Assembly (NCBI RefSeq): GCF_009720385.1
Contig: NZ_WARX01000001.1
Location: 1,116,001 to 1,180,000, forward strand
DNA length: 64,000 nt
Direction of reading: 5' to 3'
Source: Catellatospora vulcania
GTDB taxonomy: Bacteria > Actinomycetota > Actinomycetes > Mycobacteriales > Micromonosporaceae
How positions within the stretch are numbered: position 1 is the first letter of the stretch; every line of letters begins with the position of its first letter. The position numbers were made by a program, and so were the translations under genes. Under the pieces are notes generated by a model, which saw nothing but the letters and a program-made list of their open reading frames with translations, made no database searches and had not been told where the DNA came from. Of the stretch, positions 412-29,539 are shown piece by piece.

Positions 412-3282
412 CTACGGAGGGTGTGGGAGGGTCGGGTCAGCACCGGTGAGAAACGTCTCCATCGGCTGCTCGTCCGGGGCGCCGTACAGGTCGAACAGCC
501 CGGTCGCCGTGTTGCGGCTGTGCGCGGCCGCCGCGTGGTCGCCGAGCGCCGCCTGCACCTTGCCCAGATGGCGCAGGGCCGAGCCCCGGCGGACGGGGTC
601 GTTGATCTCGATCGCCCGCTGCAGCGCTTCGGCGGCGTCGGCGTGGGCCAGCTCGGGCCGTCGCGCCCGCAGGAGAATCTCGGCCCGGCACAGCTTCATG
701 TCCAGCCAGTGCGCGTGATCGTGCAGCGCGGCCGACAGCGCCACGCTGCGGGTGCAGTAGTGGATCGCCGGTCGGACCCTGCCGAGCTGCGCGTACAGCA
801 CCCCGAGTTGGCCCAGCGCCATCATGCGGTGCGTGGTCGCGGCACCGGTGCCGATGAGACGCAGGCTGCGCCGGACGGACAGGACGGCCTCCTCGAAGCG
901 CCGCAACCCGGCGAGCGCCTCGGCGGCGTTGGTGATCACGATCGACTGCAGGCGTGCGTCGCCGGTGGCCTCCAGCGCTTCGCGGCTCATGTCGTACCAG
1001 CGCAGTGCCTCATCGAACTGCCCGATGCGTCCGTTGAGGATGCCCAGGCCGTTGGCCGCGGCGGCGACGCCGTCCAGGTCGCCGAGCGACTGCCAGGCGG
1101 CGAGCGCACGCATCAGGCCGACCCGGGACTCGTCGTAGCGGCGCTGGTAGTAGCGGGCCTGGCCGAGCGAGTTGTGGGCGATCGGCTCGGCGGCGAGGTC
1201 GTCGGGGGTGCGCAGGCGGAGCGCGGTCTCGGCCAGCCGGATGAACCCGTCGGTGTCGCGGCGCAGCGCGTAGTTGCTCGTGGCGCGCAGCAGCTGCGTC
1301 GGGTAGCGGCGAGCCGTGCCGGTGGCCTCGCCGGCCTGCTCGGCGGCGGCGAACGCGCACACCAGCTCCGCGTCGAGCCAGCGGCGGGCGTCCTGCGTCG
1401 TCGAGAGCTCGACCAGGTCGGTGCCCTCCGGACCGGTCAGCGCCGGATCGATGGGCCGGGCCACGCCGGCGAAGTGCTGCACCGCCCGGCGGGCCGTGCC
1501 CACGTAGTACACGAGCAGGCGGCGCAGCGCCTCGGCGCGCCAGGACGGTGAGTCCTCGGCCAGCGCGCACTCCGCGGCGTACAGCCGCAGCAGGTCGTGC
1601 AGCCGGAAGCGGCCGGCGTCGACCTCGACCATGCGCGCGTCGACGAGCCGGTCCAGCGCCGACGCGGCGGCCGACCGCGAGTCGCCCAGCAGCGCGGCCA
1701 TCGCCGCGACGCTCAGGTGCGGCACGCGGGCCAGGCCCGCCAGCCGGAACGCGCGCGCGGCCGCCGGGTCGAGGGCGTGGTAGCTGGCCTGGAAGCAGGA
1801 CCGGATCGCCATGTCGTCGGTGTGCAGCTCGTCGAGGCGGTGGCGCTCGTCGACCAGCCGGTCCACCAGGTCCTGCGCCGACCAGTCCGGGCGGGCGGCG
1901 AGCCGGGCGGCGGCGATGCGCAACGCGAGCGGGAGCCGGTCGCACATGGCCACCAGCCGCTGCGCGGCGGCCGCGTCGTCGGGGCGGCCCAGCATACGCA
2001 GCGCGTCCTGCTCGCCCAGCACGTCGAGGGCGAGCAGCGTCCCGCCGTCGAGCGAGGTCAGCGCGCGGCGGCTGGTCACCAGCACGAGGCTGTTCCCGGT
2101 GCCCGGCAGCAGCGTGCGGACCTGCGCGGCGTCGACGGCGTTGTCCAGCACGACCAGCATGTGGCGATCGGCCAGCAGGGTGCGGTACAGGTTGGTGGCC
2201 TCGGCCGCCTCGGCGGGCACGTCCGCGTCGCCCACGCCCAGCGCGCGGAGGAACCGGCCGAGCACGTCCGCGGGCGGGAGCGGGGTCAGCCGTGGATTGG
2301 ATCCCTGCAGGTCGAGGTAGAGCTGACCGTCCGGGTAGCGGTCCTGCAGCTGATGGGCGAGCCGGATCACCAGGGCGGACTTGCCGACGCCACCGGGGCC
2401 GTGGATGTTGCGCACCGGCGCGGTGGACGCGGCGAGCGCGGCCAGCTCGCCGTCGCGTCCGATGAGGGGCGTGAGGTCGGGCGGCAGCTGCCGCGGCACG
2501 ACCTCGGGCGTGGGCGAGGTGCGCACCAGTGCCGGATCGCGCCGCAGGATCGCCGCCTGCAGCTGGCGCAGCCGGGTGCCGGGCTCCAGGCCCAGCTCGT
2601 CACCGAGGGCCTGACGCGCCTGCTGGTAGACGTCGAGCGCGGCGGCGGCGTCGCCGGCCGCGTACAGCACGCGCATGAGCTGGTCGTAGGCGCGCTCGCG
2701 GGTGGGGTGCACGGCGATGTGCTCCCGGATGGGGGCGAGCAGGGTGGCGCCGTCGCCGACGAGCAGCCGGGCCTCGAACAGGTCCTCGGTGTGCACGGTG
2801 CGCAGGTCGTCGAGCGCGGAGGCGCGGGCGGCCAGGGTGGGTCCGACCGGGATGTCGGCCAGTGCCGCACCGCGCCAGCAGGACAGCGCCTGGCCGAGGC
2901 GGCGTACCGCCTCGTGGTGGCGGCCCTCGGCCAGTGCCGCCGACCCTGCCGCGGCGTGTGACTGCCACAGTTCGACGTCGCACTCGCCGGGTGCCACCTG
3001 TAGCCGGTAGCCGCCGGGCGTGGTGACCAGCCGTTCGGGCTCGATGCCGGCGGCGGCGAGGGCGCGGCGCAGCGTCGAGGCGTACGAGCGCAGGTTGGCG
3101 ACCGCAGAGCGGGGCGGCTCGTCGCCCCACAACTCGTCGGTGAGCCGGTCCAGGGTGACCGTGCGGTCGCCGTCGAGCAGCAGCACCGCCAGCATGCAGC
3201 GGATCTTGGGTACGTTCAGGCCGGTCACACGTTCGCCACCGCCCAGAGCCAGCGGCCCCAGCAGGCGGAACAGGACCGGCAT
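412..3282 (-). CDS. AfsR/SARP-family transcriptional regulator
   Basis: A 956-residue regulator with the full large-SARP layout. Residues about 1-95 form an OmpR-like winged-helix domain (FRLLGPLAL start). About 95-250 are the bacterial transcriptional activation domain. An NB-ARC ATPase follows, with P-loop GPGGVGKSAL near residue 295. The last about 350 residues are a TPR array. SARPs of this size usually activate secondary-metabolite or development genes by binding direct repeats near -35. It reads away from the adjacent Nudix gene and lies downstream of the MacAB-like efflux genes on the same strand, with a 96-bp gap, so it may or may not share their transcript. No biosynthetic cluster is visible here, so its target is unknown. 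Confidence 0.9.
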   Translation of the reverse strand: MPVLFRLLGPLALGGGERVTGLNVPKIRCMLAVLLLDGDRTVTLDRLTDELWGDEPPRSAVANLRSYASTLRRALAAAGIEPERLVTTPGGYRLQVAPGECDVELWQSHAAAGSAALAEGRHHEAVRRLGQALSCWRGAALADIPVGPTLAARASALDDLRTVHTEDLFEARLLVGDGATLLAPIREHIAVHPTRERAYDQLMRVLYAAGDAAAALDVYQQARQALGDELGLEPGTRLRQLQAAILRRDPALVRTSPTPEVVPRQLPPDLTPLIGRDGELAALAASTAPVRNIHGPGGVGKSALVIRLAHQLQDRYPDGQLYLDLQGSNPRLTPLPPADVLGRFLRALGVGDADVPAEAAEATNLYRTLLADRHMLVVLDNAVDAAQVRTLLPGTGNSLVLVTSRRALTSLDGGTLLALDVLGEQDALRMLGRPDDAAAAQRLVAMCDRLPLALRIAAARLAARPDWSAQDLVDRLVDERHRLDELHTDDMAIRSCFQASYHALDPAAARAFRLAGLARVPHLSVAAMAALLGDSRSAAASALDRLVDARMVEVDAGRFRLHDLLRLYAAECALAEDSPSWRAEALRRLLVYYVGTARRAVQHFAGVARPIDPALTGPEGTDLVELSTTQDARRWLDAELVCAFAAAEQAGEATGTARRYPTQLLRATSNYALRRDTDGFIRLAETALRLRTPDDLAAEPIAHNSLGQARYYQRRYDESRVGLMRALAAWQSLGDLDGVAAAANGLGILNGRIGQFDEALRWYDMSREALEATGDARLQSIVITNAAEALAGLRRFEEAVLSVRRSLRLIGTGAATTHRMMALGQLGVLYAQLGRVRPAIHYCTRSVALSAALHDHAHWLDMKLCRAEILLRARRPELAHADAAEALQRAIEINDPVRRGSALRHLGKVQAALGDHAAAAHSRNTATGLFDLYGAPDEQPMETFLTGADPTLPHPP

Positions 3283-3378
3283 GCGATCTTCACTCCCCGT
3301 GGTGCTCCGGTGGACGCCGAACAGATTACGAACCGGTCACCCTACCGGCCCGCCCCTTCCCGCCAGTCGGTATGCGGC

Positions 3379-4563
3379 TCAGTCGGTGCGCAGCGCGACG
3401 ACCGGGTCGAGCCTGCCGGCGCGCTGCGCGGGCACCACCCCGAACACGATGCCGACGGCGCACGAGACGCCGAACGCCAGCGCGATCGACCACCAGGTCA
3501 GCGCGGCGGGCACGGGGCTCAGCGCGGCCGTGGCCAGCGAAGCCCCCACGCCGAACGCGATGCCGAGCAGGCCGCCGATGGTGGTCAGCAGCACCGCCTC
3601 CAGCAGGAACTGCAGGCCGATGTCGCGCGGGCGCGCGCCCAGCGCCATGCGCAGCCCGATCTCGCGGGTGCGTTCGCGCACCGAGACCAGCATGATGTTG
3701 GACACGCCGACCCCGCCGACCAGCAGCGAGATGCCCGCGATCGCGGCGAGCACGGCGGTCAGCACGCCCAGGATGTCGCCGAGCACGCCGAGGATCTGCT
3801 CCTGCGTGACGGCGCTGAACTCCTCGTCGGGGTGGCGGCGCTGCAGTTCGGCCACGATGTCGCGGCCCAGCCGGTCGATGGTCTCGGCGTCGGGCGCCTT
3901 GACCGCGAACGCGTCCACCCGTTTCGTCGCCAGCAGCCGCTGCGCCGTGGACAGCGGGATGTGCACCTCGTTGTCGCGGTCCACACCCAGGCTCTGCCCC
4001 AGCGGGGCGAACACGCCGATCACCCGGAACCGCACCCCGGCGATGGTGACCTGCTGCCCGACCGGGTCGCGCTCGCCGAACAGGGTCCTGGCCACGGAGC
4101 TGCCGAGCACCGCGACGCGGCGTCCGGTCTCCACGTCGGTGCGGGTCAGGTACGCCCCGGCGCGCACGTCGCGCAGGAACACCTTCGGCGTCGTCTCCAG
4201 CACCCCGAGCAGGCTGGTGAACACCTGCTCCTTGCCCGCGCGCACGTTCTCGCCGGAGGTCAGCGACACGGCGACCCGGTCGCGGTCACCGGCGACGCGG
4301 ATGACCGCATCCAGATCGGACTGGTCCAGCCGCGACACCGCCGGGGCGGCGTTGAGGCTGACCTGGCCCGGCACGACCAGCAGCAGGTTCGAGCCCAGCC
4401 CTTCGACCTGCGCCTGCACCTCGTTCTTGGTGCCGGTGCCCAGCGCCACCAGGATCACCACCGCGCCGACGCCGATCACCATGCCCAGCATGGTCAGCCC
4501 GCTGCGCAGCCGGTTGGCCCGCAGCGCGTCCAGCGCCACCCGCCACGCCTCCGCCAGCCTCAT
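3379..4563 (-). CDS. MacB/FtsX-type ABC transporter permease
   Basis: A 394-residue permease. The first helix (residues about 20-42, GLTMLGMVIGVGAVVILVAL) is followed by a large extracytoplasmic MacB-type domain (about 45-260), then three C-terminal helices, the FtsX topology. Such permeases act with a separate ATPase and a membrane-fusion adaptor to move substrates out of the inner membrane or periplasmic face by a mechanotransmission mechanism. The start ATG overlaps the stop of the ATPase gene by 4 bases (4560-4563), showing translational coupling. In a Gram-positive envelope the likely role is export of a lipophilic compound or peptide; the substrate cannot be read. Confidence 0.9.
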   Translation of the reverse strand: MRLAEAWRVALDALRANRLRSGLTMLGMVIGVGAVVILVALGTGTKNEVQAQVEGLGSNLLLVVPGQVSLNAAPAVSRLDQSDLDAVIRVAGDRDRVAVSLTSGENVRAGKEQVFTSLLGVLETTPKVFLRDVRAGAYLTRTDVETGRRVAVLGSSVARTLFGERDPVGQQVTIAGVRFRVIGVFAPLGQSLGVDRDNEVHIPLSTAQRLLATKRVDAFAVKAPDAETIDRLGRDIVAELQRRHPDEEFSAVTQEQILGVLGDILGVLTAVLAAIAGISLLVGGVGVSNIMLVSVRERTREIGLRMALGARPRDIGLQFLLEAVLLTTIGGLLGIAFGVGASLATAALSPVPAALTWWSIALAFGVSCAVGIVFGVVPAQRAGRLDPVVALRTD

Positions 4564-5309
4564 CGCGGCACCTCCCCGGAGGCGTCGCCGGTCACCGGGC
4601 CGGTGCCGGCACCGTCGGCCGCGGCGCTGTCGTCGACGATCCGGCCGTCGCGCATGGTGATCTGGCGGCGGGCCCGCTCGGCGACCTCCCGGTCGTGCGT
4701 CACCAGCACCACCGCCACGCCCTCGGCCGTGTTGAGCTGCTCCAGCAGTTCCAGCACGGCTGCGCCGGTGGCCTGGTCGAGGTTGCCGGTCGGTTCGTCG
4801 GCCAGCAGCACCGCCGGTTCGGTGACCAGCGCCCGCGCGATCGCCACGCGCTGCTGCTCGCCGCCGGAGAGCTGATTGGGCTTGTGCCCGATGCGGTGGG
4901 ACAGGCCGACCCGCTCCAGCATCAGCGCGGCCCGCTCCCGGCGCTCGCGGGCGCCCTGCCCCCGGTAGACCAGCGGCAGCGCCACGTTGTCCAGCGCACT
5001 GGTGCGCGACAGCAGATGGAACGACTGGAACACGAACCCGATGGTGGCGTTGCGCAGGTGCGCCATCTCCGCCGGGGTCAGCCCCGCCACGTCGCGCCCG
5101 CCGATACGCAGCCGCCCCGACGTCGGCTGGTCCAGGCCGCCGAGCAGGTGCATCAGCGTGGACTTGCCCGAGCCCGACGGCCCGACGACGGCGACGTGCT
5201 CGCCGTGGGCGATGGTCAGGCTCACCCCACGCAGCGCCGACACGCTCACCCCGTCCAGGGCGTACGTGCGCGCCACGTCGATCGCCTCGATCGCGGCGTC
5301 GCCGGTCAT
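4560..5309 (-). CDS. ABC transporter ATP-binding protein (MacB/LolD type)
   Basis: A 249-residue ATPase with Walker A GPSGSGKS (about residue 43), the Q-loop in GFVFQSFHLL, signature LSGGEQQR, Walker B VLLADEPTGNLD and the H-loop VLVTHD. The EPTGNLD form and the length place it in the MacB/LolD/FtsE branch that partners with FtsX-like permeases. It overlaps both neighbours by 4 bases (adaptor gene upstream at 5306-5309, permease downstream at 4560-4563), so the three genes form one adaptor-ATPase-permease operon. The C-terminal about 25 residues are a low-complexity tail after the conserved core. Confidence 0.93.
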   Translation of the reverse strand: MTGDAAIEAIDVARTYALDGVSVSALRGVSLTIAHGEHVAVVGPSGSGKSTLMHLLGGLDQPTSGRLRIGGRDVAGLTPAEMAHLRNATIGFVFQSFHLLSRTSALDNVALPLVYRGQGARERRERAALMLERVGLSHRIGHKPNQLSGGEQQRVAIARALVTEPAVLLADEPTGNLDQATGAAVLELLEQLNTAEGVAVVLVTHDREVAERARRQITMRDGRIVDDSAAADGAGTGPVTGDASGEVPR

Positions 5310-23877: not shown

Positions 23878-25212
23878 GTGGCGGCCCGCCCGGAACGCTG
23901 GAGGCGGCCCTTGTCCCGGTTCTTCGACGGTGCCTGGTCGTGGCTGGTCGCCGCGGCCGCCGAGACCTCGTGGCGCGAGCTGATGCCGCTGGGCCTGGCC
24001 GGCGCGTTCGTGTGGGGGCTGTGGTTCTACCGGGTGCTGCTGTCCCGGCTGGACCGGCCGATCCTCAACGACTTCCGCACCTCGGTGTCGGTGGTGGTGC
24101 CGTCCTACCGGGAGGACCCGGACATCCTGCTCGAATGCCTGCGCAGCTGGCTCGGCCAGGACCCCGACGAGGTCGTCATCGTGCCCGACGTCGGCGACAC
24201 CGAGGTGCTGCGGCGGCTGGCCGCCGTCGAGGACCCGCGGCTGCGGGTGCTGCCGTTCGCCCACCGCGGCAAGCGCTCGGCGCTGGGCGTCGGCATCCGC
24301 GCCGCCCGGGGCGAGCTGGTGGTGCTGGTGGACTCCGACACGCGCTGGCAGCGCGGGCTGCTGGCGGCCGTGCAGATGCCGTTCGCCGACCCGACCGTCG
24401 GCGGCGTCGGCACCCAGCAGAACGTGCACCAGCGCAGCACCAGCGTCTGGCGGCGCGTCGCGGACTGGCTGGTCAACCTGCGCTACTACGACTACGTGCC
24501 GGCGATGGGCCGGGCCGGGGCGGTGGCCTGCCTGTCCGGGCGCACCGCGGCGTACCGGCGCTCGGTGGTCATGCCGGTGCTCGACCACCTGGAGAACGAG
24601 TTCTTCCTGGGCCGGCGCTGCGTGGCCGGCGACGACGGCAGGCTGACCTGGCTGGTGCTGGCGTCGGGCTACCGCACCGTGCACCAGTCCTCGGCGCGGG
24701 CGATGTCGATGTTCCCGGCGACGCTCTCGGCGTTCGTCAAGCAGCGGGTGCGCTGGAGCCGCAACTCCTACCGCTGCTACCTGACCGCGCTGTGGAAGGG
24801 CTGGCTGTGGCGCACCCCGCTGGTCACGAAGATCACCGTGCTGCAGATCCTGCTGACCCCGGTGACCATGGGCATGGCCCTGGGCTACCTGCTGCTGTCG
24901 CGCCTGGAGCTGAGCCCGCGCGGCGCGGTGGTGGTGCTGTTCTGGCTGCTGGCCGGGCGCGGCATCCGCGGCTGGTCGCACCTGCGCCGCCATCCCCGGG
25001 AACTGCTGATGCTGCCGCTGGTCGCGGCGGTCGTCATCACGATCTCGCTGCCGATCAAGCTGTACGCGTTCGCGACCATGAACCGGCAGGGCTGGCTCAC
25101 CCGCGGCGCCGACCGCATCGGCGGCGACGGCCAGGGCGCGAGCACGCTGTCGTCGTCCCCGCCCACCCCCGCCGGGCGGCGGGCCGTGCCCGTGCCGTCG
25201 GAGGTGGCGTAA
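23878..25212 (+). CDS. Processive family-2 glycosyltransferase (hyaluronan/alginate-synthase-like)
   Basis: The open frame reaches back to 23014. I prefer GTG 23878 because GGTGGAG sits six bases before it and because 23728-23780 is AT-richer promoter-like DNA; ATG 23767 and GTG 23866 are alternatives. That gives 444 residues. An N-terminal helix (about 35-52) precedes the GT-A domain, with SVVVPSYREDPD, the DSDT of the metal site, the acceptor Asp in AGDDGRLTWL, and the processive motif QRVRW. Three C-terminal helices follow. Processive GT2 enzymes polymerise and extrude beta-linked polysaccharide. The next two genes encode beta-helix proteins, so a modified uronic-acid-type polymer is plausible. 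Confidence 0.85.
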   Translation: MAARPERWRRPLSRFFDGAWSWLVAAAAETSWRELMPLGLAGAFVWGLWFYRVLLSRLDRPILNDFRTSVSVVVPSYREDPDILLECLRSWLGQDPDEVVIVPDVGDTEVLRRLAAVEDPRLRVLPFAHRGKRSALGVGIRAARGELVVLVDSDTRWQRGLLAAVQMPFADPTVGGVGTQQNVHQRSTSVWRRVADWLVNLRYYDYVPAMGRAGAVACLSGRTAAYRRSVVMPVLDHLENEFFLGRRCVAGDDGRLTWLVLASGYRTVHQSSARAMSMFPATLSAFVKQRVRWSRNSYRCYLTALWKGWLWRTPLVTKITVLQILLTPVTMGMALGYLLLSRLELSPRGAVVVLFWLLAGRGIRGWSHLRRHPRELLMLPLVAAVVITISLPIKLYAFATMNRQGWLTRGADRIGGDGQGASTLSSSPPTPAGRRAVPVPSEVA

Positions 25213-27128
25213 TGCGGCCCGTCCGCACGGCAGTGGCCGTGCTCGCCCTGCTGCTCACCGCGCTGCTGCTCACCGCGGCCGGCACACCGGGCGCGGCCGC
25301 CGCGTCCGCGTCCCCGGCCTGGACCGCGGCCCACCGCGCCGCCACCGCCGACGCCGCGGCGGCCGACGCCGAGCGGCAGGCCGCGCTGGTGGCCGCCGAG
25401 GACCGCTGGCTGAACCAGGTCCGGGCGGTCACCGCGGTGGCCCCGCTGCGCGACCTGCTCAGCCGCCCGCCGGGCAGCACCACGCAGAAATGGGACAAGC
25501 CCTACCGGCTCGACACCGCCGGCGGGTACACGCTGGTGCTGACCGCGCGCACGGCCTCGTACACGGTCGACGACCTGCTGCGTCTCGCGCCGCAGACCTT
25601 CGTCCGCCAGCAGCAGGGCGCCTACCTGCTCACCGAGAACATCTACGTCAACTCCGGGGCCCGGCTGAAGCTGGCCCACCCGGGCGGCCTGGAACTGCGC
25701 CTGGCCAGCCGCAGCAGCGGCTTCGTGGCGATCGTGTCGTTCGGCGGCGGCCTGACCCTGGCCGGCACCAAGCAGGCGCCGGTCCGGGTGACCAGCTGGG
25801 ATCCGCGTACCGGCAAACCCGACACCGAGGTCGGCGACGGCCGGGCCTACCTGCGGGCCATCGGCGGCACCTTCGCCATGAGCCACACCCGCGTGTCCCA
25901 CCTGGGGTTCTGGAGCGGCCGGACCGGCGGGGTCAGCCTGACCGGCACGGACCGGCCCGACACCGGCGCGGTCGAGGGTCCCGACGCCGCGACGCCCGGC
26001 AGGCTGCTGCCCGGCGAGGTACGCGTGCTGTCCGAAGGGCGCGTCGCCAGCCCCGACAGCCGCTTCACCGTGCCGAGCCTGTCCTACGTCTCCGGCACGA
26101 TCAGCGACAGCGAGCTCATCGGCAACGCGTACGGGCTGTTCGTGTCCAGCGCCGACGGCATCAAGATCACCGACACGAAGGTGCGGGACAGCCTCCAGCA
26201 CGGGGTGGTGCTGCACCGCTTCGCCACCAACGCGGTCATCGAACGGACCGTGTCAGCCCACAACGGCGGCGACGGATTCCTGCTGTCCCGCGCCACCCAG
26301 CAGGTGCGCATCACCAACACCACCGCCGAGCACAACGGCGGCAACGGCTTCACCCTCAGCGGCCGCCCGCTCGCCGACGGCCCCTCGGCGTCCGGGCAGT
26401 CGACCGCGGCTTACGGCGCGAACACCGTCTCGCACAGCACCGCCCGCGGCAACGGCCACTACGGCTTCGAGATCCTCGGCGGCATCGCCGTCAGCATCCA
26501 GGAGAACCAGATCGAGGGCGGCGACATGGGCATCGTGGCCCGGCTCGGCGCGCGCGACCTCACCATCAGCACGAACCGGCTCAAGAACCAGAGCCGCCAG
26601 GCGATCGCGATCCGCGACGGCGTCGCCAAGGCCCGCATCACCGGCAACCTCATCGAGAGCACCGAGACCGGGGTGTACGTGCGTGACTCCGTCGCCGAGG
26701 TCCGCGGCAACACCGTCCACGACGCGAACAGCCACGGCGTCACCTTCGTCGGCGCGGTCGGCGGCTCGGTCGCCGCGGGCAACGCGATCACCGGCATCGG
26801 ACCCAGCGCGCTGGACACCGGCCGCGCCGAAGGGAAGGTCACCTTGCGCGACAACCAGACCGACGCCTGGCTGGACACCAGCACGCTCTGGGCGAGGGTA
26901 CGCCACTACGCCAGCCCGATGACGCTGCTGTGGGCCGCGATCCTGCTGCTGATCGTCGTGCTGGCGTTCCGCCGCCGCCGCGACGACCACGGCCACCCGT
27001 ACGCGGGAACGAAACCGCTCTTCCCCCGCGACGGCGGGGAGCCGTCCGGGGCGCGGCCCGAGCCCGGCCGGCCGGGCCCGCGCGACGTGGCCCGCGGCCG
27101 GGCCAGGGTGCCGGTGATGGCCGAGTGA
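25212..27128 (+). CDS. Secreted, membrane-anchored right-handed beta-helix protein
   Basis: A 638-residue protein whose ATG shares bases with the TAA of the synthase gene. It has a signal sequence (1-33), a coiled-coil-like Ala-rich section (about 35-70), then parallel beta-helix rungs from about 280 to 545, with recurrent N/G turns such as AHNGGDGFLLSRATQQVRITNTTAEHNGGNGF. A C-terminal helix (about 572-592, LLWAAILLLIVVLAFRRRR) anchors it. The fold is used by mannuronan C5-epimerases, pectate lyases and NosD. Its genetic coupling to a GT2 synthase suggests it epimerises or trims the nascent polymer. No catalytic residue can be assigned with confidence. Confidence 0.85.
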   Translation: MRPVRTAVAVLALLLTALLLTAAGTPGAAAASASPAWTAAHRAATADAAAADAERQAALVAAEDRWLNQVRAVTAVAPLRDLLSRPPGSTTQKWDKPYRLDTAGGYTLVLTARTASYTVDDLLRLAPQTFVRQQQGAYLLTENIYVNSGARLKLAHPGGLELRLASRSSGFVAIVSFGGGLTLAGTKQAPVRVTSWDPRTGKPDTEVGDGRAYLRAIGGTFAMSHTRVSHLGFWSGRTGGVSLTGTDRPDTGAVEGPDAATPGRLLPGEVRVLSEGRVASPDSRFTVPSLSYVSGTISDSELIGNAYGLFVSSADGIKITDTKVRDSLQHGVVLHRFATNAVIERTVSAHNGGDGFLLSRATQQVRITNTTAEHNGGNGFTLSGRPLADGPSASGQSTAAYGANTVSHSTARGNGHYGFEILGGIAVSIQENQIEGGDMGIVARLGARDLTISTNRLKNQSRQAIAIRDGVAKARITGNLIESTETGVYVRDSVAEVRGNTVHDANSHGVTFVGAVGGSVAAGNAITGIGPSALDTGRAEGKVTLRDNQTDAWLDTSTLWARVRHYASPMTLLWAAILLLIVVLAFRRRRDDHGHPYAGTKPLFPRDGGEPSGARPEPGRPGPRDVARGRARVPVMAE

Positions 27129-28330
27129 GACAGGCATACCCGCCGCTCGACGACGAGCAGGCGCGGACCGCGGCGTGCCCCGGGCGTCCGCGCCCGCGCG
27201 GGCTCGCGCTGCTGCTGCCGTTCGCGGCCACGTCGCTGCTGGCCGGAATGCTCGTCCTGCTGCTCATGGCCCTGACCGCGTGCCAGGGACCGCAGCCGGA
27301 CGACAGCGCCGGTTCCGGTCCGTCACCGTCCACCGCTGCCGGTTCCGCCATCTCCGGGGCGACGACGGCCGGTGTGCCCGGCACCCCCGCACCGTCGGCG
27401 AGCGGCGCCTCGGGCCGGAGCCCGGCCCAGCGCGCCTGCCCACCCGCCACCGTGACCGTGGGCGACGCGCGCGCTCTGGTCGCTGCGCTGGCACGGGCCC
27501 GGCCCGGCGACAGCATCAGACTCGAAGACGGGGTGTACGAGGGCCGTTTCGCCGTCACCGCCCCCGGCACCGCGGCGAGACCCGTGCACCTGTGCGGCGG
27601 TCCCGCCGCGGTGCTCGACGGCGGGGGCACCGGTCACGGGTACGCCCTGCACCTCGACGGTGCGGACCACTGGCGGCTGACCGGGTTCACGGTCCGCAAC
27701 GCACAGAAGGGCGTCATGCTCGACCGCACCATCCACACCGTGCTCACCGGCCTGACCGTGGAACACGTCGGCGACGAGGCGGTCCACCTGCGCGCCTTCA
27801 GCTCCGACAACGTGGTGCAACACAGCGTGATCCGCGACACCGGCCTGCGCAAGGCGCAGTTCGGCGAGGGCGTCTACGTCGGCACCGCGAACAGCAACTG
27901 GTGCGACGTCACCTCATGCGAGCCGGACCGCAGCGACCGCAACGTGATCCGCGGCAACCGGATCAGCGCCGTGACCGCCGAACCCGTCGACGTGAAGGAG
28001 GGCACCACCGGCGGGACCGTCGAGGCCAACACGTTCGACGGCGCGGCCATGACCGGCTCGTTCGCCGACTCGTGGGTCGACGTGAAGGGCAACGGCTGGC
28101 TGATCAAAGGCAACACCGGCCGGCACTCGCGCGGCGACGGCTTCCAGACCCACCGCGTCGCCGACGGCTGGGGCGACCGCAACGTGTTCACCGCCAACAC
28201 CGCCGACGTCGGCGGGCCCGGCTGGGGCTTCCACCTCGCGCCCGTCGCCGCGAACGTGGTCGCCTGCGACAACACCGTCACCGCAGCGGCGAAGGGCCTG
28301 GCCAACACCGCCTGCCGCGGCACATGGTGA
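27125..28330 (+). CDS. Right-handed beta-helix lipoprotein
   Basis: A 401-residue protein starting at GTG 27125, overlapping the upstream stop by 4 bases. A cytoplasmic stretch of about 27 residues precedes a hydrophobic segment ending in LTAC at Cys53, so it may be a lipoprotein or a type-II anchored protein. After a Ser/Pro/Gly linker comes a beta-helix of about 270 residues: DSIRLEDGVYEGRF, GYALHLDGADHWRLTGFTVRNAQKG, VIRDTGLRKAQFGEGVYVG. The pattern is that of the pectate-lyase/chondroitinase-B superfamily. A 9-bp hairpin follows the stop directly. Confidence 0.83.
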   Translation: MRQAYPPLDDEQARTAACPGRPRPRGLALLLPFAATSLLAGMLVLLLMALTACQGPQPDDSAGSGPSPSTAAGSAISGATTAGVPGTPAPSASGASGRSPAQRACPPATVTVGDARALVAALARARPGDSIRLEDGVYEGRFAVTAPGTAARPVHLCGGPAAVLDGGGTGHGYALHLDGADHWRLTGFTVRNAQKGVMLDRTIHTVLTGLTVEHVGDEAVHLRAFSSDNVVQHSVIRDTGLRKAQFGEGVYVGTANSNWCDVTSCEPDRSDRNVIRGNRISAVTAEPVDVKEGTTGGTVEANTFDGAAMTGSFADSWVDVKGNGWLIKGNTGRHSRGDGFQTHRVADGWGDRNVFTANTADVGGPGWGFHLAPVAANVVACDNTVTAAAKGLANTACRGTW

Positions 28331-28331
28331 A

Positions 28332-28358
28332 GCCCGGGAGCATGTCCATCTCCCGGGC
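28332..28358 (+). terminator. Terminator of the polysaccharide operon
   Basis: GCCCGGGAG (28332-28340) pairs with CTCCCGGGC (28350-28358) across a 9-base loop, 2 bases after the TGA of the last beta-helix gene. The stem is strong and GC-rich, with no T-tract. It also separates the operon from the tRNA-like RNAs on the other strand; a smaller hairpin at 28363-28383 (GTGTGC/GCACAC) may serve those. Confidence 0.8.
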
Positions 28359-28395
28359 CTCGGTGTGCCACCGAATTGCACACGCCAGCACGTTT

Positions 28396-28510
28396 AAGCG
28401 CACAGGTCAGTCTGATCATCCCCTGCGTCCTGCCTTTTGGACTACCGCGCCGTGAAGAGGCGCGGGCCGGACTCGAACCGGCAACTCAGGGGCCTATGCC
28501 CGTACGCGTT
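28396..28510 (-). ncRNA. Circularly permuted tRNA-like RNA, copy B (Y-RNA-like)
   Basis: On the minus strand the core 28420-28492 reads in permuted order. The 3' half comes first: anticodon-stem strand CCCCTG, variable AGTT, T-arm GCCGG-TTCGAGT-CCGGC and acceptor strand CCGCGCC. Then a 7-nt loop TCTTCAC, then the 5' half: acceptor GGCGCGG, TA (U8, A9), D-arm GTCC-AAAAGGCA-GGAC, G26 and CAGGGG. Acceptor (7 bp), D (4 bp), anticodon (6 bp) and T (5 bp) stems are all perfect. Outside the core 28502-28510 can pair with 28396-28403 with one bulge and one G-U. This matches the bacterial Y RNA plan, in which a tRNA mimic has a closed acceptor and the anticodon stem runs on. A permuted tRNA gene is the alternative. 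No anticodon is readable. Confidence 0.72.
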
Positions 28511-28542
28511 CGATCTGGCGATCGGCGGCGAATGCTGAGCCT

Positions 28543-28679
28543 GGAGCGAGAGTCTGAGATTGATACGCGGCTGCCTCTGCCGATTTGGGCCACCTCCGCA
28601 TGTGGTGCGGAGGGCGGGAGTCGAACCCGCACCTTTTACCGCGTTCGTCAGCTTCAGCTTCAGCTTCAGCTTGCGCTCC
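28543..28679 (-). ncRNA. Circularly permuted tRNA-like RNA, copy A (Y-RNA-like)
   Basis: The core 28566-28643 has the same permuted order as copy B, 32 bases upstream of it on the minus strand. The 3' half is CGCGGT, a 7-nt variable loop, T-arm GCGGG-TTCGACT-CCCGC and acceptor CCTCCGC followed by ACCA. After ACCACAT (7 nt) comes the 5' half: GCGGAGG, TG, D-arm GCCCAAATCGGCAGAGGC (3-bp stem, GG in loop) and GCCGCG. Acceptor and T stems are perfect; the anticodon stem is 6 bp with one G-U. Outer pairing GGAGCG/CGCTCC (28674-28679 with 28543-28548) and CTGA/TCAG extends the stem. The encoded ACCA would suit a true tRNA end. Sequence differs fully from copy B while structure is kept, which argues for selection on structure. 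Confidence 0.72.
28648..28671. repeat. Hexanucleotide tandem repeat (TCAGCT)4 within RNA copy A
   Basis: Four perfect TCAGCT units lie in the 5' extension of RNA copy A, between the outer helix and the tRNA-like core. Such short tandem repeats can change in number by slippage and would alter the length of that stem side. Confidence 0.85.
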
Positions 28680-28717
28680 TCGCGCACCCCCGCCCTCCGG
28701 CGGGGGAGTCTGTGGGG

Positions 28718-29449
28718 TCAGGCGAACAGGTAGCCGAACACCCGGTCGCCGACGTGCTTGTCGACCGCCTCGGCGTTGTTGGCCTCCTCGCGGGCGAACT
28801 TGACCGCCTGCTGCAGCTTCTCCACCCGCTCCAGCAGCGTCGACACCCGCTTGGCCGGCAGCGCGCCGGAGAACTTCACCGTGGTCCAGTAGCCCACCGC
28901 GATGTCCTCGTAGTACACCTCGACCTGCGCCGGGTGCTTCTCGGTCGCCTCGGCCTTGACGTGATTGCGGGGCACCTTCTTGGTGCGGATGGTGCGCACC
29001 GGCTCGGTGGACCAGCAGTCCGCGGAGTCGCTGAACACCCACGACTCGGCGGCGTCCAGCACCGGCAGCTTCTTGACGAAGGTGTGCAGATCGGTGAGCT
29101 GCTTCTCCAGGAACAGCAGGTAGGTCACCGGCACGTCGGACACCAGCACCCGGTCGTCGACGACCACGTCGGCGCGGGCCACGCAGTTGGTCGCGTCCTT
29201 GGTCGCGGTCACGTCGAACAGCCGGGTCAGGGTGGTGCCGATCTGGCGCAGCACGTCCTCGGCGCGGGTCTGCACCTTCGTGGACTCCGGCGGCAGCTGC
29301 TCGCCCTCCTCGTCCTTGGCCTGGTAGGTCCGCGAGATGCCCGACAGCAGCGCCGGCTTCTGCACGGCGTGGTGGGCCTCGGTCAGGTCCTGGAACGAGC
29401 GGCTCTTGATGCCCTTCTCGACCGCGATGATCTGGTTCAGCTTCGCCAT
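28718..29449 (-). CDS. Conserved actinobacterial protein of unknown function, next to the tRNA-like RNAs
   Basis: A 243-residue soluble protein from ATG 29449, preceded by GGGAGGAA. I do not recognise a named function. The start MAKLNQIIAVEKGIKSRSF, a mid segment VPVTYLLFLEKQLTDLHTFVKKLPVLDAAESW and the basic run RTIRTKKVPRNHVKAEATEKHPAQVEVYYEDI look like a strongly conserved family. It is rich in charged residues, with no membrane segment, signal or obvious nuclease motif. The stop is 38 bases from RNA copy A, same strand, so protein and both RNAs could share one transcript or a ribonucleoprotein. That link is inferred from position only. Confidence 0.8.
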   Translation of the reverse strand: MAKLNQIIAVEKGIKSRSFQDLTEAHHAVQKPALLSGISRTYQAKDEEGEQLPPESTKVQTRAEDVLRQIGTTLTRLFDVTATKDATNCVARADVVVDDRVLVSDVPVTYLLFLEKQLTDLHTFVKKLPVLDAAESWVFSDSADCWSTEPVRTIRTKKVPRNHVKAEATEKHPAQVEVYYEDIAVGYWTTVKFSGALPAKRVSTLLERVEKLQQAVKFAREEANNAEAVDKHVGDRVFGYLFA

Positions 29450-29539
29450 TGATGTTCCTCCCACCGAGTGACGCTAGAGGATCACCCGGTCGAGCGGCAA
29501 TCCGGATTCCGACCGTCCGAACTCTGTTGATCAAGTACG

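Follow-up and report, generated by a model that had tools for sequence, protein, structure and literature searches.

A putative RNA with two circularly permuted tRNA-like modules encoded beside DUF7873 genes of actinomycetes and phages

Introduction

Why does a bacterial genome encode, on the minus strand of one short region, two tRNA-like cores whose halves stand in the wrong order, and to which protein do they belong? In both cores, the T-arm and the 3' acceptor strand precede the 5' acceptor strand and the D-arm, which is the order of a circularly permuted tRNA. The initial annotation of the window (the whole 64-kb stretch of DNA analysed here) described two tandem RNAs of this kind, likened them to the bacterial Y RNA YrlA, and pointed out that no Ro60 gene lies in the window. 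The key fact missing from it is the adjacent gene: the RNA begins 11 nt past the stop codon of a DUF7873 gene. I performed a computational analysis of the RNA, of its neighbour, and of their distribution.

Results

Layout of the RNA element

A descriptor composed of a T-arm with TTCRA, a 7-bp acceptor stem, U8, and a D-arm with GG matched exactly two places on both strands of the 64 kb, namely cores A and B, and it had no match in 20 mononucleotide shuffles (one strand). Thus, the permuted cores and the positions of their stems are confirmed in the sequence. A relaxed descriptor (loops of up to 79 nt) also gave two matches in the window, while 5, 7, and 8 matches were obtained per 120 simulated 64-kb windows, both strands, with Markov orders 1, 2, and 3, respectively; the chance rate is about 0.04-0.07 per window. 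Neither a tRNA by ARAGORN nor any Rfam match at gathering thresholds was found in the 64-kb window. The features are as follows.

28718-29464, minus strand: DUF7873 gene, 248 aa, GTG start, the proposed protein partner (Pfam PF25283, 398.8 bits)
28687-28706, minus strand: 5' hairpin (sequence and MFE fold)
28645-28670, minus strand: outer helix A, 5' strand, with CUGAAR repeats (short helices with 28534-28559 in the MFE fold)
28565-28644, minus strand: core A, permuted tRNA-like module (descriptor, covariation, fold)
28638-28644 with 28565-28571, minus strand: core A anticodon-like stem
28614-28630, minus strand: core A T-arm
28607-28613 (3' strand) with 28593-28599 (5' strand), minus strand: core A acceptor
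28600-28606, minus strand: core A acceptor loop, 7 nt, starting with ACCA
28573-28590, minus strand: core A D-arm
28534-28563, minus strand: conserved middle linker (UCAAUCUCAGACUCUCGCUCCAG onward), containing the 3' strand of outer helix A
28509-28513, minus strand: conserved AUCGA ahead of the 5' strand of outer helix B
28499-28507, minus strand: outer helix B, 5' strand (covariation and fold)
28420-28492, minus strand: core B, permuted tRNA-like module (descriptor, covariation, fold, sub-threshold YrlA match)
28487-28492 with 28420-28425, minus strand: core B anticodon-like stem
28466-28482, minus strand: core B T-arm
28459-28465 (3' strand) with 28445-28451 (5' strand), minus strand: core B acceptor
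28452-28458, minus strand: core B acceptor loop
28427-28442, minus strand: core B D-arm
28398-28406, minus strand: outer helix B, 3' strand (placed via sequence anchors)
28391-28397, minus strand: conserved motif UUAAACG, past outer helix B
28325-28361, minus strand: 3' hairpin, 12 bp, with the loop AUGGACAUG, followed by ACCA at 28325-28328 (fold and comparison)

Read from 28706 down to 28325, the order is therefore 5' hairpin, CUGAAR-repeat linker, core A, conserved linker, core B on its outer helix, UUAAACG, 3' hairpin, and ACCA. The ACCA noted earlier in copy A opens its acceptor loop, as had been described; that at 28325-28328 is possibly the mature 3' end of the RNA.

The 382-nt element has an MFE of -193 kcal/mol (z -5.4), and none of 100 shuffles was as low. 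The tRNA-like stems lie where they had been reported; in one detail, the MFE fold differs and pairs the D-stem of core A with a GGC other than the tRNA-like one. In the predicted fold, the anticodon-like stem continues towards the outer helix and leaves no free anticodon loop. Since the element is conserved as a unit (see below) and folds as one molecule, the two cores probably belong to a single RNA of about 380 nt (minus strand, 28325-28706) rather than to two. The two cores of the initial annotation thus stand, while its separate RNAs give way to one modelled element with a 5' hairpin, linkers, and a 3' hairpin. On the plus strand, ORFs with beta-helix (NosD-like) matches at 23940-28330 of the window are candidate genes convergent on the 3' end of the RNA.

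Linkage to DUF7873

Is the neighbourhood of the cores and DUF7873 common? Loci were fetched by the DUF7873 protein alone, which gave 80 genome loci (the best 80 of 557) and 31 viral contigs, and linkage was counted on 109 of them, the truncated loci L146 and L147 being left out. Among the matches listed, at least one core lies within 800 nt downstream of DUF7873 in 106 of the 109 loci (79 of the 80 from genomes and 27 of the 29 viral ones), and 81 of the 109 have two. In all, 187 cores fall in the 86,662 nt downstream of DUF7873, versus 5 in the 1,213,952 nt that make up the rest of these loci on both strands, three of these five being in one viral contig, L138. The coreless exceptions are L041, which still matches the RNA model (34.5 bits), and L124 and L125, where DUF7873 is present with neither a core nor an RNA-model match. 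Two other viral contigs, L128 (2001-2726) and L134 (2001-2738), have one in-frame stop within each DUF7873 match.

The initial annotation had proposed searching relatives with a model built from the element. A covariance model built from the B module (R1) was used for this purpose in 61 relatives and in a 396-genome draw of the phylum, with stricter filters under which weak matches are lost. DUF7873 is present in 24 of the 61 relatives, and in all 24 the best R1 match lies beside the gene (53.9-115 bits; 23 of the 24 matches are full length). The 37 relatives without DUF7873 reach no more than 51 bits, with a partial match that lies close to a TROVE gene (G030). The draw gave the same picture: beside DUF7873, the seven genomes that have it reach 53.4-121 bits, and the 389 genomes without DUF7873 score at most 50.2 bits. 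One genome without DUF7873 has a tRNA with an apparently duplicated 3' half just upstream (L183 3493-3571, minus strand), an arrangement that mimics a permuted core.

In a comparison of the DUF7873 protein with Pfam, PF25283 alone is above the cut-off, and PF05731 (Ro60/TROVE) is thus not among the matches. Comparison with PDB sequences gave no match at E below 0.29, the fold comparison gave no solved-fold match at E <= 0.001, and no paper naming DUF7873 was found in the open literature.

Conservation of the structure

The initial annotation had supposed that the structure is selected, and compensatory changes were sought in relatives and found. For the B module, 28 sequences with acceptor loops of at most 13 nt and both anchors (including UUAAACG) were chosen. 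Standard pairs fill 97.2% of the pair cells, versus 33-46% when the partner is slid by 1-3 columns as a control. Because 22 of the 24 pairs of the B module changed on both sides across the 28 sequences, the base pairing of the RNA is under selection. For core A, RNAalifold independently recovers the T, acceptor, and D stems, with both-side changes in 12 of 15 pairs. The acceptor stems form 7.0 pairs with their own partner versus 5.22 with swapped partners in A, and 6.97 versus 4.61 in B, among cores preselected for at least six of seven acceptor pairs (106 of 109 loci have such a core); here, A and B were assigned by order, or by D-stem length where a single core was found. Support for the anticodon-like stems is weaker than for the other stems. 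The D-arms of core A presumably resemble those of leucine tRNAs, and many D-arms of core B those of glycine tRNAs.

The outer helices beyond the anticodon stem, which had also been claimed, are supported by own-versus-swapped comparisons, helix A by energy and helix B by pairs. The helix A duplex has -20.2 kcal/mol with its own strand versus -16.5 with swapped strands (lowest of 200 swaps, -18.5; 27 nonredundant loci of 103). Outer helix B was assessed in the 112 of 139 loci that have both anchors, UUAAACG together with an AUCRA-type motif. With a single register, chosen as the best of 24 and applied to every locus and to the swaps alike, the own partner forms 6.66 of 8 pairs versus 4.36 for swapped partners, with a maximum of 4.84 in 500 swaps (62 unique stems).

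The flanking parts recur as well. Of 84 unique middle linkers, 73 have the motif. A search whose score favoured GGMYA loops found a 3' hairpin with such a loop in 115 of 128 loci; 53 of the 66 unique hairpins have 12 or 13 bp. Judged by eye and uncounted, a 5' hairpin stands at the equivalent place in many relatives, often with GAGC in the loop.

DUF7873 and the RNA in phages

At E 1e-5 or better, DUF7873 matches occur in 73 phage records, whose names refer to Vibrio, Gordonia, Rhizobium, Klebsiella, Serratia, Arthrobacter, Pseudanabaena, Rhodococcus, and Microcoleus. Nine of these, from seven host groups, were examined in detail, and every one has an RNA-model match, in some cases a weak one. 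As the matches of the Vibrio (26.5 bits), Klebsiella (33.2 bits), and Rhizobium (39.6 bits) phages are weak, it is mainly the descriptor and the position that support the claim in these three. Cores lie downstream of DUF7873 in eight of the nine phages, two cores in six phages and one core in two. In the ninth, a Microcoleus phage with a partial genome, the descriptor finds no core near DUF7873, and the RNA-model match lies about 2 kb away. A HEARO RNA (L113 5950-6159, 129 bits) and an ORF are located between them, as if a mobile element had been inserted. In Gordonia phage Keelan, DUF7873 and the RNA are separated by a small ORF and a tRNA gene.

Some phage and viral loci hold further RNAs. 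Gordonia phage GodonK has a tmRNA match (L108 2384-2912, 90 bits) among tRNA genes, where the record annotates only a tRNA-His inside. The viral contig L132 has a permuted tmRNA match (4552-4741; 42.7 bits, gathering 47) which is cut by the end of the stretch and lies about 1.5 kb beyond the DUF7873 RNA. In L138, three more permuted tRNA-like cores (4118-4575) are found about 1-1.5 kb beyond the DUF7873 RNA, with sub-threshold YrlA scores of 30.2-38.3 bits.

Ro60 genes and YrlA

The absence of Ro60 holds within the window and does not hold genome-wide: contigs C16 and C6 each have a TROVE gene, while the window is on C1. On C6, three permuted YrlA-like cores (L184 1589, 1969, and 2116) stand ahead of the TROVE gene (3000-4571), and by its sequence L184 is the genome's own Ro60-Y RNA locus. 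Near the other TROVE gene (L001), neither YrlA nor a permuted core was found to a distance of about 1.5 kb. TROVE is present in 19 of the 61 relatives: 15 have both TROVE and DUF7873, nine have DUF7873 only, and four have TROVE only. A TROVE match (E 0.001) is therefore absent in nine of the 24 DUF7873 genomes, which are genomes of stated completeness; at the same E value it is also absent in eight of the nine DUF7873 phages (one a partial genome). Rhizobium phage RHph_TM30 (NC_070966 139662-141332; L169 and L170) has a TROVE gene with its own permuted RNAs about 5 kb from DUF7873 and its RNA. Since TROVE loci have permuted RNAs of their own and there are DUF7873 genomes with no TROVE match, two systems exist side by side, and the present RNA belongs with DUF7873. 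By these comparisons, the RNA travels with DUF7873 and not with Ro60: its neighbour is DUF7873, and it is not encoded beside a Ro60/TROVE gene.

The likeness to YrlA is borne out by the same permuted plan and, in the Rfam search that had been suggested, by matches of the YrlA model (RF02553) to both cores, 31.5 bits for core B and 26.7 bits for core A. Both are below the gathering score of 69, which no YrlA match reaches in the window or in any of 16 DUF7873 sources. Sub-threshold matches to core B were found in six of ten DUF7873 sources (28.4-38.2 bits). TROVE-linked YrlA RNAs of relatives, found in four of six TROVE loci scanned, also score only 25.9-38.5 bits, and thus the threshold alone does not decide membership.

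Discussion

Possible roles of the RNA

What may such an RNA do? The best explanation, which I favour on balance, is that a two-module RNA of about 380 nt is made together with the DUF7873 protein encoded just upstream, is bound by it, and acts as a tether or adaptor particle. Most likely, this would be a second, Y-like ribonucleoprotein, and its biochemical job is read here from analogy. DUF7873 would hold the conserved linkers and the outer helices in the way that Ro60 holds the stem of a Y RNA, while the two tRNA mimics would dock tRNA-binding enzymes, either a ribonuclease such as PNPase or enzymes that process or modify tRNAs. Such a particle might thereby be a tether or adaptor for the turnover of RNA or tRNA. 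In phages, which often carry it close to tRNA genes, it could help the phage to handle tRNAs during infection. The tether is proposed because of the analogy with the Rsr-Y RNA-PNPase complex: according to PMC8058203, a Deinococcus Y RNA tethers Rsr to PNPase, and PMC7790460 also treats this complex.

A broader proposition appears to me evenly balanced. It holds that the pair is an undescribed class of ribonucleoprotein, made of DUF7873, which has no recognised fold, and a single RNA in which two permuted tRNA mimics are followed by a 3' hairpin, often standing before CCA, and that it has spread in phages of unrelated hosts and been kept in actinomycete genomes. If tRNA-processing enzymes cut the acceptor loops, as they may, the RNA would consist of several pieces, and its true CCA ends could be charged.

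Alternatively, the tRNA mimics may be decoys that engage enzymes of tRNA cleavage, modification, or degradation, such as tRNA-targeting nucleases of defence or stress responses, while DUF7873 protects or presents the RNA. The surroundings in phages would suit this role, as 2-25 tRNA genes lie within 5 kb in seven of the nine phage DUF7873 loci, and YrlA has been proposed to inhibit an anticodon nuclease (PMC7790460). However, the absence of a free anticodon loop in the predicted fold means that anticodon nucleases would miss their target, and the DUF7873 gene is kept outside phages, in 11 of 11 searched genomes of the genus of the window. A decoy is therefore unlikely.

It is decidedly unlikely, too, that the element is mainly the precursor of a split molecule, in which RNase P and tRNA 3'-end enzymes would cut the acceptor loops to yield an RNA of two or three pieces whose CCA ends are real and perhaps aminoacylated, like the products of permuted tmRNA and tRNA genes. 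Several features are as expected for such cutting. The acceptor loops vary widely, from 4 to 78 nt in A and from 6 to 76 nt in B, some with inserts; 76 of the 86 unique A cores have A at residue 73 (among the 91 B cores, 65 have U there and 22 have G); positions 74-76 encode CCA in 40 of these A cores and 28 of these B cores; and ACCA or GCCA directly follows the 3' hairpin in 27 of 66 unique cases. On the other hand, over half of the cores lack CCA. In the three frames of the middle linker, the first stop lies within 45 nt in 10, 9, and 8 of 73 cases, and no nearer in any frame; no conserved reading frame was found in this linker, and hence it does not encode a tmRNA-like tag. In the window, neither ARAGORN nor any Rfam tmRNA model gives a match at threshold, and the only tmRNA-model hit is a 17-nt T-arm match of 13.8 bits. 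In the 16 DUF7873 sources, the only tmRNA at threshold is the separate gene in L108.

Could the RNA be a cis-regulatory 3' UTR of DUF7873, sensing free tRNA-binding proteins or binding DUF7873 and so controlling the stability of the messenger? The tight linkage would fit this reading as well, and the distance from the stop codon to the T-arm of core A has a median of 96 nt (1100 nt downstream examined). Yet the intervening features of phage Keelan and of the Microcoleus phage separate the RNA from DUF7873, and the two-module build seems to far exceed what a simple UTR signal needs, which makes this role quite improbable. Finally, that a Ro60-bound Y RNA merely adjoins DUF7873 is very improbable: the permuted plan is that of YrlA, the genome has TROVE genes (one, L001, without a nearby YrlA), and TROVE accompanies DUF7873 in 15 of 24 genomes, but TROVE matches are missing from the other nine and from eight of nine phages (one partial), TROVE loci of this genome, of relatives, and of RHph_TM30 own separate permuted RNAs, and the YrlA score is far under gathering.

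With the tether or adaptor particle as the preferred reading, the results suggest that Ro60-Y RNA has a counterpart, a second family of RNA-protein particles that mimic tRNA, whose protein has no recognised fold. That a bacterial genome and many unrelated phages share the DUF7873-RNA pair suggests a new protein-RNA machine, related to yet distinct from Ro60-Y RNA. DUF7873 gains a functional context. The frequent location near phage tRNA genes makes the question of why phages carry so much tRNA-related machinery directly testable, and the RNA, being compact and encoded together with its proposed partner, offers through its two tRNA mimics a handle for finding the enzymes that they recruit. In mainly open literature on Streptomyces, bacteria, and phages, no description of permuted or tRNA-mimic RNAs like this one was recognised; an earlier description is possible.

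Comparison with known systems

Circularly permuted tRNA genes exist in algae and archaea, and the order of the tRNA halves is the same as in the present RNA. In contrast, the present RNA has no anticodon loop in its predicted fold, and its tandem pair of cores is kept with one protein gene.

Permuted two-piece tmRNAs (RF04321, RF01849, and RF01850) also have the tRNA-like 3' half before the 5' half with a loop between them, and in permuted tmRNA this loop is cut out. Core B of L116 even has a partial beta_tmRNA match, although at 24.8 bits versus a gathering score of 84. The present RNA differs in having two tRNA-like domains and a middle linker without a conserved tag frame.

YrlA shares most with the present RNA. 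Both carry a permuted tRNA-like module (T-arm, joined acceptor, and D-arm) on an outer stem, and both are present in bacteria and in phages, each linked to one protein gene. However, the protein linked to the present RNA is DUF7873 and not TROVE, and its score is under the Rfam threshold. It has two modules in what is apparently one RNA of about 380 nt, long and variable acceptor loops, many of which begin with NCCA, and additional 5' and 3' hairpins, together with linkers that have conserved motifs of their own.
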